From positions 1 through 45,235 of the forward strand of contig WRIB01000014.1 of NCBI GenBank assembly GCA_009782955.1: DNA of 45,235 nucleotides. The letters run 5' to 3'. Below, one piece after another: positions 18,788 through 26,341 of the stretch. Made by a program: the position numbers and the translations under genes. The stretch's first letter is position 1; every line of letters starts with the position of its first letter. The DNA is from Treponema sp. Its GTDB lineage: Bacteria; Spirochaetota; Spirochaetia; Treponematales; Breznakiellaceae. The notes below the pieces were generated by a model. It was not told the DNA's origin and did not search any database. It saw only the letters and a list, made by a program, of their open reading frames with translations.

Positions 18788-20713
18788 TTATTTTCCGCTG
18801 TCTACAGCCAGCGCTTCTTTTGCCGAAAGCCGTACACCGCCTGCCTTAATGCCCTTTACATTGTAATCCTGAGCCTTAAATGCTTCGGATAGAACTTTAA
18901 GACGCGGCTTTGGCTTGTATTTAACGGCAAATGTAAATTTGGGTCTGGTATCGCCATGAAGAACCGTACAACCGTCGGGAAGCAGGGCATAATCCTTATT
19001 CATTATCCACCCTTCAATCTGGAAACGTTTAATACAGGGATACCCGGTTTTTGGTTCCGCATAAATCAGGGTAAAGATTATCGAAGAAATAATGTCTTTG
19101 TTTGCTTGTCCTATATATACCGCTTTTGGACCGATAAAAGCTTTTTCCGGAATATCCGTTACCGACCAGAGACCATTGCCCCGCATTACAAGAATGCGAT
19201 CAAAAGGAGAAAGTTCTGCTACTACTTCGCCTCCGGATACGGAAGTACCAAGGTAGCCGCTTGTGTTGTCATATTTAAGCTGCACATCCTTGCGTACTAC
19301 TTCTTTTACGTCAATCTTGTCAAAAAGACCGACCTTGGTTCGCCGTTTTCCTCCTTCAAGTTCTTCATCGGCTTTAATTTTACCGATAATACCGTCCAGA
19401 AAACGCAGTGCATAGGCTGTTATGTTTTTCAGGTGATGATTTATTTCCTTAATCCGGGCATTAATCGTATCCATTTCTTCCCGGGCTTTGTTGATGTCGT
19501 AAAGCGAAATCCGTCTGATGGGAATTCTCAGCAAATGTTCAACATCACCGGTGCTGACTCCCCGCGGCCCGATTTCTTTGGCAAAGGGCTTAAAGCCGGC
19601 AATTACCGCATCGTTAACCCCCTTGACGGTTTTCATTTTTTCTATTGCTTTGTAAATTCGCTCTTCAACAAAGATCCGTTCCAGATTTCTAAGGTGAAGT
19701 TTATCCTGCAGTTCGCTTTTTTCCAGTTCCAGTTCTTTGGTGAGTATTTTTACCAGTAGTTTGGAATGATACTTAATTACATCGGTTATTTTCATAACCG
19801 AAGGAAGGCCGTTTCTGATAACAAGAAGATTTGCCGAAATGGACTGTTCGCACTCTGTAAAGCCAAAAAGAGCGTCAACCGTTTCTTCGGAATATACTCC
19901 CCGTGCAAGGCGGATTTCAATTTCTACTTTTTCCGTAGTAAAGTCGCTTATTCCCTGTATTTTAATACGTCCCGCTTTGGCTGCATTTTCTATACTGTTA
20001 ATGATGCTTTCTGTTGTTGATCCGTAGGGAAGTTCACGGATAACAATACGTTTCGGGTCCGAAGTATCAAGCTTTGCCCTGACAAGTACTTTGCCGTTGC
20101 CGTCCTGATAATCCGAGACATCTACCTGTCCTCCGGTTGGGAAATCGGGATACAGTTCGAATTTCTTTCCCTGAAGGCAGGCCTTTTCCGCTTCGAGCAC
20201 TTCGAGTACATTGTGCGGCAGTATTTTGGTGGACATACCAACGGCAATTCCTTCGGCACCGATAACAAGAATTACGGGAATCTTTGCCGGAAAAAGAACA
20301 GGTTCTTTTTTTCTGCCGTCATATGAATCTACAGTGGGAGTCAGCTTGGGATTGTAAAAAATTGCCTTTGCCAGGGGAGTCGAACGGCATTCAATATAAC
20401 GAGGCGCCGATGCTTCGTCGCCGGTATAGATATTGCCGAAATTTCCCTGCCTGTCTATAAACAGATCCTTATTGGCCAGAACAACCAGGGCGCTGCCTAT
20501 GGACGCATCTCCGTGGGGGTGGTACTGCATACAATGGCCGACTATATTGGCAACTTTGTGGAATTTTCCGTCGTCCATTTCAAAAAGAGAATGGAGTATA
20601 CGGCGCTGGACCGGTTTTAAACCGTCTTCAAGATCGGGAATAGCCCTGTCCTTGATTACATAACTTGCATATTCAAGGAAATTTCTGTCAAATAGATTTT
20701 TAATGTAAGCCAT
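18788..20713 (-). CDS. parC: DNA topoisomerase IV subunit A
   Basis: Type IIA topoisomerase breakage-reunion subunit, 641 residues. The winged-helix region carries EDGLKPVQRRIL, YHPHGDASIG and the catalytic Tyr in APRYIECR (about residue 106). The tower and coiled-coil regions follow, with a short C-terminal region instead of a full gyrase beta-pinwheel, and no gyrase GQ box that I can see. From memory the Borrelia ParC is also about 626 residues, so the short form is normal for spirochaetes. A GTG at 20719 could add two residues (MP); neither start has a strong ribosome site. Its partner parE is upstream on the same strand but 2.7 kb away. Confidence 0.9.
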   Translation of the reverse strand: MAYIKNLFDRNFLEYASYVIKDRAIPDLEDGLKPVQRRILHSLFEMDDGKFHKVANIVGHCMQYHPHGDASIGSALVVLANKDLFIDRQGNFGNIYTGDEASAPRYIECRSTPLAKAIFYNPKLTPTVDSYDGRKKEPVLFPAKIPVILVIGAEGIAVGMSTKILPHNVLEVLEAEKACLQGKKFELYPDFPTGGQVDVSDYQDGNGKVLVRAKLDTSDPKRIVIRELPYGSTTESIINSIENAAKAGRIKIQGISDFTTEKVEIEIRLARGVYSEETVDALFGFTECEQSISANLLVIRNGLPSVMKITDVIKYHSKLLVKILTKELELEKSELQDKLHLRNLERIFVEERIYKAIEKMKTVKGVNDAVIAGFKPFAKEIGPRGVSTGDVEHLLRIPIRRISLYDINKAREEMDTINARIKEINHHLKNITAYALRFLDGIIGKIKADEELEGGKRRTKVGLFDKIDVKEVVRKDVQLKYDNTSGYLGTSVSGGEVVAELSPFDRILVMRGNGLWSVTDIPEKAFIGPKAVYIGQANKDIISSIIFTLIYAEPKTGYPCIKRFQIEGWIMNKDYALLPDGCTVLHGDTRPKFTFAVKYKPKPRLKVLSEAFKAQDYNVKGIKAGGVRLSAKEALAVDSGK

Positions 20714-20768
20714 AGGCACTTAACAATTTACGGCAAACGGCGGAAAGTAGCAAGAGGTTGAGCTTGTT

Positions 20769-20800
20769 CCAAAACTCCGGTAGTTTTGGTTAGGTTTCTT
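20769..20800. repeat. 8-bp hairpin between the sensor kinase and parC
   Basis: CCAAAACT (20769-20776) and AGTTTTGG (20782-20789) form a perfect stem with a 5-base loop. It lies just downstream of the sensor-kinase stop and upstream of parC. On the minus strand no T-run follows, so it is a poor terminator for the kinase. TGTTCCAAAA at its left edge recurs as TTTTGGAACA at 9.63 kb. Confidence 0.4.
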
Positions 20801-23259
20801 TAAAAGGGTATTGTAATGTCAAAGGTGAGTCCATGTCCTTTTTTGCTGTTAAGCTGTATGGTTCCCTGTATTTCTTTTAATGAGTCCCGTACAAGGTTTA
20901 GGCCTATTCCCCGCCCGCCGTGAAGGTCTTCTTTTTCCGAAGTACTGAAACCAGTACTGAAAATAAGGTTTGAAAGGAGTTGTTTGTTGGTTTTATCGGC
21001 CTCCGGGTTTTTTAACAGGCCCAATGCCAATGCTTTTTGTGCAATTGCATCAAAATTCAGCCCATTGCCGTCATCGGCAAGTATTATCCGGACCCTGCCA
21101 TTTTCTGTTTTTACATTAAGGGTAATTTTTCCTTCTTCGCTTTTGCCCAGAGCCAGTCGTTCCTCCGGCGTTTCAATGCCATGGTAAACGGCATTACGTA
21201 CAAGCTGTGTAAGAATTTCTTTTATCGCACGCTTTTGATCATGGATCAGAGTTTTTTTGTCAAATGTTTCCACGGTAAGCGCTGCTTTTTTATTTTCGTC
21301 GGCAGCAACCCGTTTACATATTTGCTTTAAAGCATCAATAAATACATCTTCTTCTTTTTTGTTTTCGTTTTTTGCGGAACTGTTAAAATCCCGAATCCGT
21401 TTGAGGATATCTTCCAGTTTTTCTTTTTCTTTCTGAAGTTTTTCCAGTTCAACGGTAATGTGCAGTATTTCGTCAAATTGAATCTCTGTTTCTTTTTCCC
21501 GCAATTTTTTTATTATTGTTTCCAGTTCATGGAGTTTTTCACCGTAAGCGGAAAGCCCTACAATTACTGCATTGGATTTTACTGCATGGACAAGCTGGTA
21601 CAGTTTTATCAAAAGCTCCCTGTTTTTGATTTTTTTGTTTTTTAATAATGCGTTAATACGGCCAAACTCGTCATCGGTATCTTCAATAAAATCCGCAAAA
21701 ACGTCCTGATCAACCTGCATTACTTCAAAAAGATTGCGCATTTCGTTCTGCTGCCGCGCTTCTTCTTCGGCAAGCTGTTTCTTTAAAAGAGTTTCGGCAC
21801 TGATGTCCTGTATTGTGCCCATTACAAATATTTCACCGCCGCCCTGATCTACAGGGGCAAAGAGACAACGTAATGTCTTGCTGAAATTTGTTTCGGTACT
21901 GATATATGTAAATTCCGCAAGGGGATTCATATCTTCCAGCATTTCTGCATCTATTGATTTGTCCATGATCATGGTAAAGTAATCGCCGATTATGCCGAGT
22001 TCTTTTGCACTAAACGATTTTTTAAGCAATGCGGTAAACGATTTACCCTGTAACTGCCTGGTTGAAAGTACGTCTTCCATGGCTTTGGAATAAGAAGGCT
22101 GTATTTTATATTCCCTGTCCATTAAAAAAAGACCTTCCTTTAGGTTGTCACGCATGGCGGCAATTTCGTCGCGTTGGGCCTGGATATTTTGAATTAAACT
22201 GATTGTTTCGGTAATATCCTGGATAAGAATAACAAAACCCAGAGTGCCGCCAGATTCGGAAGTAACGCGGTTTTCCCACCCGGAGTAGATCTTTCCAGGT
22301 CTGTGGGGCAGGGTAAATTCAATTTCTCTGCGGAGTTCTGATTCGCCGGGACCGCCGCTTTTTTCTGCGTGCAGACCTGTCAATAATTCTTCCGGCCAAT
22401 TTTCCAGACCCTGTATAGAAGCGCCCTTTTGAATTTCTCCCAATGCGGGAAATAGTTCATGGGCCGTTTTATTGGATCCCGTATAAGCCATACCACGATC
22501 AAGAACGACAAAGGCATCCCGAATCAGATCCATAGTGATGGCATGGGCCTTGGGCGCAAGGTCAAACATGTCGTTCATGATTATGTTATAGAAAATTATA
22601 AAATTGGATATGACCATAACAAATGGAGTAAAGAGGATGCCGGCAAAAGCCGATTCGAAAAAGTACGAAAGTGCAACATAACTGAAATTGGCAATAAGCG
22701 GTGCAAGGGCGCTGATTAAAAGCAGAATAAGGGCAAGCCGCTGTGTACGGTTTTGCTTTACCATGCTGCGGATAATGACAATCAATGTAAGGGCAATACA
22801 AAAAAGCGGATAAAAAGTGCCAACCAGATAGAGGCGGCCAGGTACGATATATAACCCCAAAATAGGATGGTTAACATCATAATTATACTCCAAATACAGC
22901 AATTGATGATATTCAAAAGTTGCAACTACAAGATAAAACAGGATCGGAACAATGAGTATGGGGAGAAAGTAGTATTTTTTGGGTAAACGTATTTCGCAGT
23001 ACTCTGCCACAAAGAAGAAGAAAAACGGAGTCATAAATGTACCGCCAAGATACTCTATTTTTGTGGCAATAATTCCTCCTCCCACGCTTCCGCTTGATAT
23101 TTCGAGCAAATACCCCAGGTTATAAAAAAAGATAAATGCCAGGCAGTATATAAACTTATAACGTTTTTCGCTTCGGCACCGTTCAATGGTAACAACGAAC
23201 ATATATACGGTAAGGGTAATGGATGCAAAAATTAAAAGCCGGACTATTATCAGCGCCAT
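20800..23259 (-). CDS. Sensor kinase: 7TM input, two PAS domains, central Hpt-like site and CheA-like ATPase
   Basis: An 819-residue protein. Residues 1-230 are seven or more membrane helices resembling the histidine-kinase 7TM input module. Two PAS-like regions follow (about 235-350, with a PAC-like FVILIQDITE end, and about 365-490). Residues 510-590 contain an Hpt-like helix with LVHAVKSNA, His558 being the likely phosphoacceptor. A helical linker leads to a HATPase domain whose N box is LVRNAVYHGIETPEERLAL (686-704), which is the CheA form, followed by DDGNGLN (729-735) and GGRGIGLNLV (781-790). No CheW-like domain follows; the protein ends after the ATPase. Its receiver partner is probably the gene whose 21-codon remnant lies just upstream. 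Confidence 0.85.
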   Translation of the reverse strand: MALIIVRLLIFASITLTVYMFVVTIERCRSEKRYKFIYCLAFIFFYNLGYLLEISSGSVGGGIIATKIEYLGGTFMTPFFFFFVAEYCEIRLPKKYYFLPILIVPILFYLVVATFEYHQLLYLEYNYDVNHPILGLYIVPGRLYLVGTFYPLFCIALTLIVIIRSMVKQNRTQRLALILLLISALAPLIANFSYVALSYFFESAFAGILFTPFVMVISNFIIFYNIIMNDMFDLAPKAHAITMDLIRDAFVVLDRGMAYTGSNKTAHELFPALGEIQKGASIQGLENWPEELLTGLHAEKSGGPGESELRREIEFTLPHRPGKIYSGWENRVTSESGGTLGFVILIQDITETISLIQNIQAQRDEIAAMRDNLKEGLFLMDREYKIQPSYSKAMEDVLSTRQLQGKSFTALLKKSFSAKELGIIGDYFTMIMDKSIDAEMLEDMNPLAEFTYISTETNFSKTLRCLFAPVDQGGGEIFVMGTIQDISAETLLKKQLAEEEARQQNEMRNLFEVMQVDQDVFADFIEDTDDEFGRINALLKNKKIKNRELLIKLYQLVHAVKSNAVIVGLSAYGEKLHELETIIKKLREKETEIQFDEILHITVELEKLQKEKEKLEDILKRIRDFNSSAKNENKKEEDVFIDALKQICKRVAADENKKAALTVETFDKKTLIHDQKRAIKEILTQLVRNAVYHGIETPEERLALGKSEEGKITLNVKTENGRVRIILADDGNGLNFDAIAQKALALGLLKNPEADKTNKQLLSNLIFSTGFSTSEKEDLHGGRGIGLNLVRDSLKEIQGTIQLNSKKGHGLTFDITIPF

Positions 23260-23277
23260 TTGTTTCCTGTAATATTT

Positions 23278-23343
23278 TTAAAAGGTGTTTTTATCGATAT
23301 TCCTCACAATTCTTGAATCGTCAACTACCAGAACTGTTTTCAT
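23278..23343 (-). pseudogene. 21-codon remnant of a CheY-like response regulator
   Basis: The ATG at 23343 follows a strong ribosome site (AGGAGG, 9 bases upstream). It encodes MKTVLVVDDSRIVRNI, the unmistakable first strand and helix of a CheY-type receiver with its acidic DD pair, and then stops after five more codons. The phosphoacceptor strand and everything else of the receiver are missing, and there is no receiver sequence in the remaining 18 bases before the kinase ATG. Thus an internal deletion is the simplest explanation. The next gene is the sensor kinase, the expected partner. A translated leader peptide is an alternative. Confidence 0.7.
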
Positions 23344-23386
23344 TAAACGAGTCCTCCTGCTGTCATCTCGCCGGCTCGCATGCACA

Positions 23387-23443
23387 CGCCGCTTTAGCGG
23401 CGAATTATAATAATTTCCTTCCGCTCGAGGGCCAAATGCCCTC
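23387..23443. repeat. Two GC-rich hairpins between parE and the receiver remnant
   Basis: Hairpin one: CGCCGCT (23387-23393) and AGCGGCG (23396-23402), 7-bp stem with a 2-base loop as drawn (looser in practice). Hairpin two: GAGGGC (23427-23432) and GCCCTC (23438-23443), 6-bp stem with a 5-base loop. The 106-bp stretch is more GC-rich than the AT-rich spacers elsewhere. Neither hairpin is followed by a T-run on the minus strand. Confidence 0.45.
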
Positions 23444-23449
23444 ATGCAA

Positions 23450-25288
23450 TTATCCAGCGTCTTCAATAAGATTTTTCATGATATATTCACGCCGTTCCGG
23501 TGTGTTTTTTCCCATATAAAAAGAAAGTACCTGGGGTACTGCTTTAAGGGTATTCACCGATACAGGTACAAGATGCATTTTTTCCCCTATAAACTGACCG
23601 AATTCTTTTGGGCTAATTTCGCCCAGACCCTTAAAACGGGTTACTTCACTGGAACCGCCCAAAGCTCCCAAAGCTTCGTCGCGTTCTTTTTCGTTGTAAC
23701 AGTACCGTGTTTCTTTTTTTGTCCTTACACGGAAAAGTGGAGTCTCGAGGATAAAAATATGTCCGCTTGTAACAAGTTCTTCAAAGTACGAAAGAAAAAA
23801 AGTAAGCAGTAAATTCCTTATGTGAAAGCCGTCAAAGTCTGCGTCGGTTGCAATGACGATACGTGCGTAACGGAGTCCTTCAATATCGTTTTCGATACCA
23901 AGGGCGGTCATTAAATTGTACAGTTCTTCGTTTTTATAAATTGCCGTTTGTTTTTTGCCGTACATATTTTCGATTTTGCCCCGAAGTGCAAAGATCGCCT
24001 GAGTCATAACATCACGGCTTGTAACCATTGATCCGGCGGCGGAATCACCTTCGGTAATAAATATGGTGGAAAGCTCTCCGTGTTTTCCGTCTTCCAGGTG
24101 ATACTTGCAGTCCTTAAGTTTGGGAATCTTCAGCGATATCTTCTTTGCCGCTTCTCTGGCTTCTTTTTTAACGGCGTTAAGTTCCGTCCTGAGCTTTTCG
24201 TTGGAAACAATTTTCTGTTCGAGTTTTTTTGCAGCCAGGGGATTACGGTGAAGCCATTCATCCACACCTTCCCGTACTGCCTGAACTATCCAGGATCTGA
24301 TGTCGGTGTTTCCCAGTTTATTTTTGGTTTGACTTTCAAAAACAGGGCTTTTTATTTTTATCGCCACAGCTGCTGTTGTTCCTTCCCGGATGTCTTCGCT
24401 TTTGTAGTCTTTTTTAAAATACGCCTGTATACCTTTAAGAAACCCTTCTTTAAAAGCTGAAAGGTGCGTACCTCCGTCAGCGGTGTATTGACCGTTTACA
24501 AAGGAAAAATATTCTTCCCCGTAATTGTTGGTGTGGGTAAAGGAGAATTCAATGTGCTGACCTTTGTAATAACCGATTGGATAGAGTATATCGTCTCCTG
24601 TTTCTTCGTTTAACAGATCGAAGAGCCCTTGTTTGGAAATATAATTTTTACCGTTCAGCGTCAGAGTCAGACCCGAATTGAGGTATGTGTAGTTTTGTAT
24701 TCGTTTTTCAACGAATTCTGCATTAAAACGATAGTTTTCAAATATGGAATTATCCGGTGTAAATTCAACAAAAGTTCCGTCCTTGCGCGCTGCAGCAGGC
24801 ATTGATGCTGCGCATTTTCCTTTGCGTTGATTTTTTAATATGCCCTGTTCAAAAACAGCTTCTGCAAAATCCCCGTTTCGTATCGACACCACACGGAAAT
24901 GGGAGGAAAGTGCGTTTACCGCTTTGGTTCCGACCCCATTAAGGCCCACCGAAAACTGAAATACATCGTCATTGTACTTGGCCCCGGTATTGATAACCGA
25001 CACACATTCTACAAGTTTTCCCAGAGGTATACCGCGGCCGAAATCCCGGATTTTTACCACCGATTTTCCCGGCCCATTATCCTTGATCATCACTTCGATT
25101 TGTTTACCGTTTCCCATAATGAATTCATCAATGCAGTTGTCGATCACTTCTTTTAATAAAACATAGATACCGTCGTCAGGATTGGAACCGTCGCCCAGCC
25201 TGCCAATATACATTCCCGTCCGGAGCCTGATATGTTCCAGAGAAGAAAGAGTTTTTATTTTTGATTCATCGTAATTTAGTTTAGCCAT
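23450..25288 (-). CDS. parE: DNA topoisomerase IV subunit B
   Basis: The ATPase subunit of a type IIA topoisomerase, 612 residues (spirochaete ParE proteins are about 600). The GHKL domain has KEVIDNCIDEF (N box, about 47-57), DFGRGIP (82-88) and GLNGVGTKAVNALS (115-128); the transducer has QTKNKLGN (320-327); the TOPRIM domain has EGDSAAG (413-419) and DADFDG (482-487), ending in RFKGLGE. The usual EGDSAGG has an Ala in place of one Gly. The ATG at 25288 has no ribosome site; TATACA lies 8 bases before it. It is the first gene of the minus-strand cluster leading to parC. Confidence 0.93.
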   Translation of the reverse strand: MAKLNYDESKIKTLSSLEHIRLRTGMYIGRLGDGSNPDDGIYVLLKEVIDNCIDEFIMGNGKQIEVMIKDNGPGKSVVKIRDFGRGIPLGKLVECVSVINTGAKYNDDVFQFSVGLNGVGTKAVNALSSHFRVVSIRNGDFAEAVFEQGILKNQRKGKCAASMPAAARKDGTFVEFTPDNSIFENYRFNAEFVEKRIQNYTYLNSGLTLTLNGKNYISKQGLFDLLNEETGDDILYPIGYYKGQHIEFSFTHTNNYGEEYFSFVNGQYTADGGTHLSAFKEGFLKGIQAYFKKDYKSEDIREGTTAAVAIKIKSPVFESQTKNKLGNTDIRSWIVQAVREGVDEWLHRNPLAAKKLEQKIVSNEKLRTELNAVKKEAREAAKKISLKIPKLKDCKYHLEDGKHGELSTIFITEGDSAAGSMVTSRDVMTQAIFALRGKIENMYGKKQTAIYKNEELYNLMTALGIENDIEGLRYARIVIATDADFDGFHIRNLLLTFFLSYFEELVTSGHIFILETPLFRVRTKKETRYCYNEKERDEALGALGGSSEVTRFKGLGEISPKEFGQFIGEKMHLVPVSVNTLKAVPQVLSFYMGKNTPERREYIMKNLIEDAG

Positions 25289-26268: not shown

Positions 26269-26341
26269 GGGCCGCTAGCTCAGTAGGTAGAGCATCGCCC
26301 TTTTAAGGCGGTGGTCGGAGGTTCGAATCCTGCGCGGCTCA
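26269..26341 (+). tRNA. tRNA-Lys (anticodon UUU)
   Basis: A 73-base cloverleaf. The acceptor stem is GGGCCGC with GCGGCTC (one G-U pair), discriminator A. The D arm is GCTCAGTAGGTAGAGC. The anticodon stem-loop has 5' arm TCGCC, loop CTTTTAA and 3' arm GGCGG, giving TTT. The T arm is GGAGG TTCGAAT CCTGC, with a G-G mismatch in the stem. CCA is not encoded. The anticodon reads AAA/AAG lysine codons. The mismatch is noted under findings. Confidence 0.93.

Follow-up and report, generated by a model that had tools for sequence, protein, structure and literature searches.

The window – the whole 45,235-nucleotide stretch of Treponema sp. DNA analysed here – probably holds what is left of a two-component pair that is being dismantled. 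In an operon that would once have read parE, receiver, kinase, an in-frame internal deletion appears to have removed all but the first 21 codons of a CheY-like response regulator gene. The remnant is likely to persist as nothing more than a leftover leader, the kinase that follows it as an orphan, and the arrangement as a whole as an intermediate in the loss of the module. The features concerned, all on the minus strand, are:

23450..25288, minus strand: parE-like topoisomerase subunit of 612 aa, upstream of the remnant
23379..23446, minus strand: copy of a dispersed palindromic repeat of ~70 bp between parE and the remnant, without the Shine-Dalgarno of the second hairpin
23278..23445, minus strand: 55-codon open frame that begins at the first ATG of the repeat, 4 nt after the parE stop, and continues in phase through the remnant as far as its stop
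23353..23358, minus strand: AGGAGG ribosome site of the remnant, 9 nt 5′ of its ATG (direct reading)
23278..23343, minus strand: 21-codon remnant of a CheY-like receiver gene, comprising beta1 and most of alpha1 and ending Phe-stop
23260..23277, minus strand: 18-nt spacer from the remnant stop to the kinase ATG, containing AGGA (direct reading)
20800..23259, minus strand: intact sensor kinase of 819 aa (stop included in the coordinates) with HisKA_7TM, Hpt (HAVKS) and HATPase
18788..20719, minus strand: parC-like topoisomerase subunit of 643 aa, downstream of the kinase

The remnant extends from an ATG at 23343..23341 to a TAA ending at 23278, its 21 codons reading MKTVLVVDDSRIVRNIDKNTF and then stop. 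An AGGAGG, an ATG and a 21-codon frame closed by a stop, with a sensor kinase beginning 18 nt further on, were the core of the original prediction, and direct reading confirms all of them, placing the kinase ATG at 23259. The reading can also be extended: the frame lies on the minus strand, where the order is parE, a 106-nt gap containing the dispersed repeat, the remnant, 18 nt, the kinase and parC. The kinase's own ribosome site (AGGA, 23268..23265) is weaker than the AGGAGG of the remnant. From the parE stop to the start of the kinase the minus strand has no flagged terminator; promoter-like sites were predicted in this interval at 23435..23407, within the repeat, and at 23273..23246, in a scan that returned six sites against 6.6 expected in shuffles. 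A tRNA (26269-26341) is the only known RNA family in the window at gathering scores, and the fold of 131 nt spanning the repeat and the start of the remnant gave a modest z of -2.33, two other repeat copies giving -1.51 and -1.69.

Origin of the remnant by deletion from a CheY-like gene appears well supported. With the receiver of genome G022 as query (itself a Response_reg match of the PF00072 type at 1.3e-26), a search of the window's genome recovered the remnant site at E 5.1e-4, with 77% identity over query positions 1-22 including the stop; 17 of the 21 residues are identical. Since this match falls between parE and the kinase, just where G006, G022 and G111 carry full receivers, the likeness is not a matter of chance, and the first strand and helix of a CheY receiver that had been proposed from the window alone are borne out. 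A Pfam scan of the 21-residue peptide returned no family at E 0.001, although a peptide so short could hardly score. The remnant can be aligned with 29 receivers, two of them without letters at the first positions and all 29 extending beyond residue 21; these, like the 30 kinases compared below (the window's included), come from the loci that were fetched and are a subset of the family. The acidic pair that ends beta1 is present (D8 and D9), while the phosphoacceptor Asp54, Thr84 and Lys106 in the relatives' numbering all lie past codon 21. Deprived of phosphoacceptor, switch Thr and Lys alike, the remnant cannot function as a receiver. The original prediction had attributed the missing Asp and all that follows it to a deletion: absence of the Asp is plain from the letters, and comparison with relatives supports the deletion.

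How the frame came to end so neatly is suggested by the far end of the intact genes. Four of the five receivers of the kinase's class terminate in K-I-x-F-stop and the remnant in K-N-T-F-stop; because Phe precedes the stop in four of the five, a join at the Phe codon explains both frame and stop. Given an ancestor of 122 codons, some 101 codons would have been lost in frame, the exact join being placeable only with the ancestor in hand. The remnant looks unconstrained: Val13 and Asp17 occupy positions where Met and Val are invariant in 29 of 29 receivers, and in a leave-one-out comparison it is changed at two of seven conserved positions, whereas 27 receivers are changed at none and two (G066a and G159) at one each. 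A stop mutation in place of a deletion is ruled out, only 18 nt separating stop and kinase start, and a causal role for the repeat is unsupported, given the distance from its end at 23379 to the join near 23281. Relocation of the lost receiver to contig C1 of the same genome is likewise ruled out: the C1 receiver, the only close one in the genome, falls outside the parE-locus class and beside the C1-class receiver of G004 (100/98), which makes it a paralogue and not the moved gene; the search behind this statement covers a genome 85.9% complete, the missing part of which could still hold a copy.

The same locus was read in relatives of this spirochete, whose family inhabits termite guts. Searches for the kinase covered 39 genomes, namely the window's and 38 others of the genus, family and order, as well as 195 family genomes. 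Orthologues sharing both the N-terminal half and the kinase part occur in G006, G111 and G108, and others cut by contig ends in G066 and G022. In G006, G022 and G111 the order is parE, a full receiver of 121-123 aa and the orthologous kinase – an intact orthologue of the receiver at the very place of the remnant – with parE-to-receiver spacings of -4, -1 and +9 nt and receiver-to-kinase spacings of +2, +9 and +16 nt, respectively. G108 has receiver and kinase on a different contig from parE, and G066 has receiver, CheX gene and kinase on a 3.4-kb contig without parE. Downstream of parE in 45 other genomes, among them the congeners G004 and G003, we found receiver and kinase in three, parC in 20 and neither in 22, the contig having ended in several of the last group. 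The original prediction had allowed that relatives might show the short frame and never a full receiver; the three with a receiver after parE all have it at full length and followed by the kinase.

Within the genus the picture is different. parE was found in three of five members, the window's genome, G004 (97% identity) and G003 (94%), and in both of these congeners receiver and kinase are absent after parE, which is followed directly by parC, at a distance of 62 nt in G004 and with an overlap in G003. The 45 nt directly before the parC ATG are identical in G004 and the window. The N-terminal half of the kinase has no match in any of four congeners, among them G001 at only 72% and G002 at 64% completeness. 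With the entire module missing here from two congeners, the window most likely represents an intermediate in its loss. The parE tree pairs the window with G004 (100/98), G003 branching next (100/99); the states of the module require three changes on it, and their degree of clustering is reached in 148 of 500 shuffles. Ancestral presence followed by several losses would agree with the kinase tree and with the common position and gene order; unclustered states on the parE tree and the frequency of parE-parC adjacency (20 of 45) leave some room for the module having been acquired separately by the window's lineage.

The kinase itself is an intact frame. Pfam matches above cut-off are HisKA_7TM (PF16927), Hpt (PF01627) and HATPase (PF02518), the middle of the protein may be PAS-like, and the catalytic motifs are present, His, N, G1 and G2 all being kept. 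At sites invariant in the other members of its clade it has changed at 26 of 274, within the range of its relatives but at the top of it (G108 26/274, G066 24/272, G006 22/270, G022 14/181, G111 15/263); of 69 sites invariant across the 29 other kinases it is changed at 2, the corresponding figure for the others being 0 to 6. A purpose-written two-ratio codon model, run on 810 codon columns from six sequences of which two were partial, estimated omega at 0.10 for the window kinase branch and 0.24 elsewhere (lnL -12776.4). A single ratio gave lnL -12792.2, and fixing omega at 1 for the window branch, which is rejected, gave -12917.7; the estimates average over a whole branch and cannot date the deletion, and as the model assumes a single base composition where the genomes differ, omega may be biased down. 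Our data thus suggest a kinase that has been under selection on average along its branch and was maintained at least until recently. In the protein tree it falls with the parE-locus kinases (98/94) on a branch of 0.37, the longest of the four (the others 0.21-0.29), which could reflect some relaxation. The contrast in change between remnant and kinase is weak (Fisher p 0.04). No intact receiver adjoins the kinase, the sole receiver match beside it being the 21-codon frame, and the earlier suggestion that the kinase has been orphaned is thereby supported.

The input half of this protein has a wider distribution. Proteins of genus g66 (L095-L102, L104), ~660 aa in length, have the same HisKA_7TM input at 51-65% identity over approximately residues 1-377 and carry another C-terminal half, which in the one scanned (L096) is a Guanylate_cyc domain replacing the kinase; the HisKA_7TM input thus seems common to kinase and cyclase proteins.

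A critical issue is what remnant and kinase now do. By default the remnant would be a short translated leader only, its AGGAGG delivering ribosomes to a point 18 nt short of the kinase ATG; that distance is close to the 2-16 nt seen in the three parE-locus relatives, so synthesis of the kinase need not have fallen. A role as leader for the kinase is plausible. The kinase would be either idle or phosphorylating another receiver, most plausibly the CheY of a second module on contig C1, which consists of a receiver, CheX (3.5e-22) and a kinase. The C1 receiver is of full length and 69% identical to that of G022, the next best receiver in the window's genome being 36% identical. Over alpha1 (residues 10-26) it agrees with the G022 receiver at 15 of 17 positions and with the remaining four of the kinase's class at 10-14. 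At residues 102 and 108 it departs from all five, and at residue 105 from four. Signalling from the kinase to this receiver is a possible, candidate case of cross-talk. Modules of the C1 type occur in many family genomes (G000:C1 (L090), L091, L092, L103, L153-L172); Pfam confirmed CheX in the five genes scanned from such three-gene modules, and their kinases have MASE6-like and HATPase matches, with Hpt matched weakly.

Our preferred reading of deletion, leftover leader, orphaned kinase and an intermediate stage of loss has several observations against it: the truncated form is known from one genome only, the kinase branch is the longest of its clade with 2 of 69 invariant sites changed, the C1 receiver departs from the kinase's class at 102, 108 and mostly 105, and presence of the module is unclustered on a parE tree where adjacency of parE and parC is common. 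That the entire module is dying – the receiver gone first, the kinase no longer useful and to go next – is a serious contender, if one we would not quite back. It draws on the absence of the module at this locus in both congeners in which parE was found, on the two substitutions in the remnant at positions invariant in all 29 receivers and on the long kinase branch, but has to accommodate an intact 819-codon kinase with all catalytic motifs, conserved sites that have changed just as often as in G108, and an omega well under 1. The same absence of excess change at conserved kinase sites would be expected had the kinase been adaptively rewired, that is, had it lost its own receiver as a consequence of already acting on the C1 CheY-CheX branch and been kept for that purpose. 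This proposal is compatible with the deletion and competes only on present function. The full-length C1 receiver beside a CheX gene and a kinase, its alpha1 match to G022 (15 of 17, the other four 10-14) and the Hpt motif around HAxKSNA common to both kinase classes among the sequences listed speak for it; we nevertheless regard it as rather doubtful, since residues 102 and 108 set the C1 receiver apart from all five class receivers, themselves a clade (100/99), and the full kinase has left no trace in four congeners.

The remaining alternatives concern the short frame. Were it a selected regulatory leader, an upstream open frame for the kinase, the strong AGGAGG and the 18 nt to the kinase start would be apt, the more so as coupling reaches to about +40 nt at 3- to 10-fold lower efficiency according to the review PMC12548453. 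However, a neutral deletion stays in frame with a chance of one in three, close spacing is found also in relatives with a full receiver and so need not be new, and the truncated frame comes from a single genome; selection for a leader is in our judgement quite unlikely. Unlikely, too, is a composite linker that has taken the receiver's place as a ribosome relay: the repeat, of a family that targets start codons and inserted 4 nt past the parE stop, would supply a 55-codon frame running through the remnant and closing 18 nt ahead of the kinase. Kinase synthesis would thereby stay tied to translation of parE, and the signal would pass to a receiver whose gene lies elsewhere. It is very improbable that the receiver is present in the organism and was skipped by the contig through misassembly or a mixture of strains. 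The genome, in 94 contigs and 85.9% complete, is probably a metagenome assembly, and the truncated form is seen in it alone; yet the site lies mid-way in a 45-kb contig, the join leaves a neat frame, stop and spacing, the two unusual substitutions in the remnant are not expected from a mere skip, and apart from the C1 paralogue, which is of the C1 class, the next receiver in the genome is only 36% identical. Deletion with an orphaned kinase is therefore the reading we retain. So read, the locus is a snapshot of a two-component pair being dismantled, the genomes compared showing the module complete, half lost or missing; the event is of a known kind, of which this is a good example, and the reading predicts cross-talk from the kinase to a paralogous receiver. 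A literature search for orphan kinases with truncated or lost regulators found nothing.

A finding that may prove more interesting than the remnant is the repeat upstream of it. Matches number 31 in the window's genome (the window copy and 30 more, for example L042, L043, L047, L052, L055, L190, L198 and L251), 22 in G004, four in G003 and eight in G001. Elsewhere the repeat is rare, being present at E 1e-6 in seven of 195 family genomes, four of them in this genus. Beyond the genus, related repeats with 77-81% identity occur at L177 (G098), L178 and L184 (G022) and L179 (G178). After copies unaligned past consensus position 60 had been dropped, 55 distinct terminal copies remained, of which 50 end in ATG, and at 38 of these 50 a frame of 60 or more codons begins there. 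In controls from the same loci such frames followed 282 of 911 CATG elsewhere and 12 of 50 TGCATG, and the other two frames of the copies gave 0 and 2 of 50. Copies at a gene start carry a Shine-Dalgarno-like run in the second hairpin: 35 of 37 copies with the run are so placed, compared with 3 of 16 without (Fisher 6e-8; two contig-end copies are excluded, and several G000 and G004 copies at the same gene are non-independent). The window copy, which lacks the run, has a frame of only 12 codons from its last ATG. An fmdB-like gene offers an empty site: in the window's genome (G000) the repeat stands directly before its ATG, in G001 and G002 there is none, in G003 it is partial, and in G004 the gene was not found; a second comparison of this kind, at a C3 gene, gave nothing. 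As a candidate mobiliser there is a single match to a Y1-type (PF01797) transposase in the genome (G000:C36:17448-17786, L257), with no significant repeat copy within 3.3 kb around it. The repeat suggests that these spirochetes harbour a family of small elements placed at start codons and equipped with a ribosome site; a literature search for repeats at start codons in spirochetes or Treponema found nothing.

Comparison with known systems places each part of the locus. Stand-alone CheY-like receivers (Pfam Response_reg, PF00072), represented by the 29 family receivers, share with the remnant the start, the acidic pair of beta1 and alpha1, but the remnant is missing ~101 of 122 codons and has no phosphoacceptor. 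Orphan histidine kinases are kinase genes without an adjacent intact partner, and the window kinase resembles them in just this respect; it differs in that the 5′ end of the former partner is still present, and because that end has been retained in place, the orphaning is directly visible. According to PMC12548453, translational coupling works best at spacings of -4 to +3 nt and is still seen, 3- to 10-fold weaker, out to about +40 nt; like the short upstream frames coupled in this way, the remnant possesses a ribosome site and stops 18 nt short of the following start codon, whereas its origin is a gene remnant and its function putative. The same review describes the MIRU of mycobacteria as a short dispersed repeat at start codons with an open frame, and by description, not by sequence, the repeat is alike: short, dispersed, at start codons (38 of 50 copies, together with the one empty-site comparison) and with a frame of its own. 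It departs from MIRU as described there in that no -4 nt overlap of stop and start with the downstream gene is found, the repeat's frame being open to its end in 26 of 37 copies and, where open, running in phase into the next gene, and in that copies at gene starts have a Shine-Dalgarno in the second hairpin. The repeat thus looks like a MIRU-like element that targets start codons.
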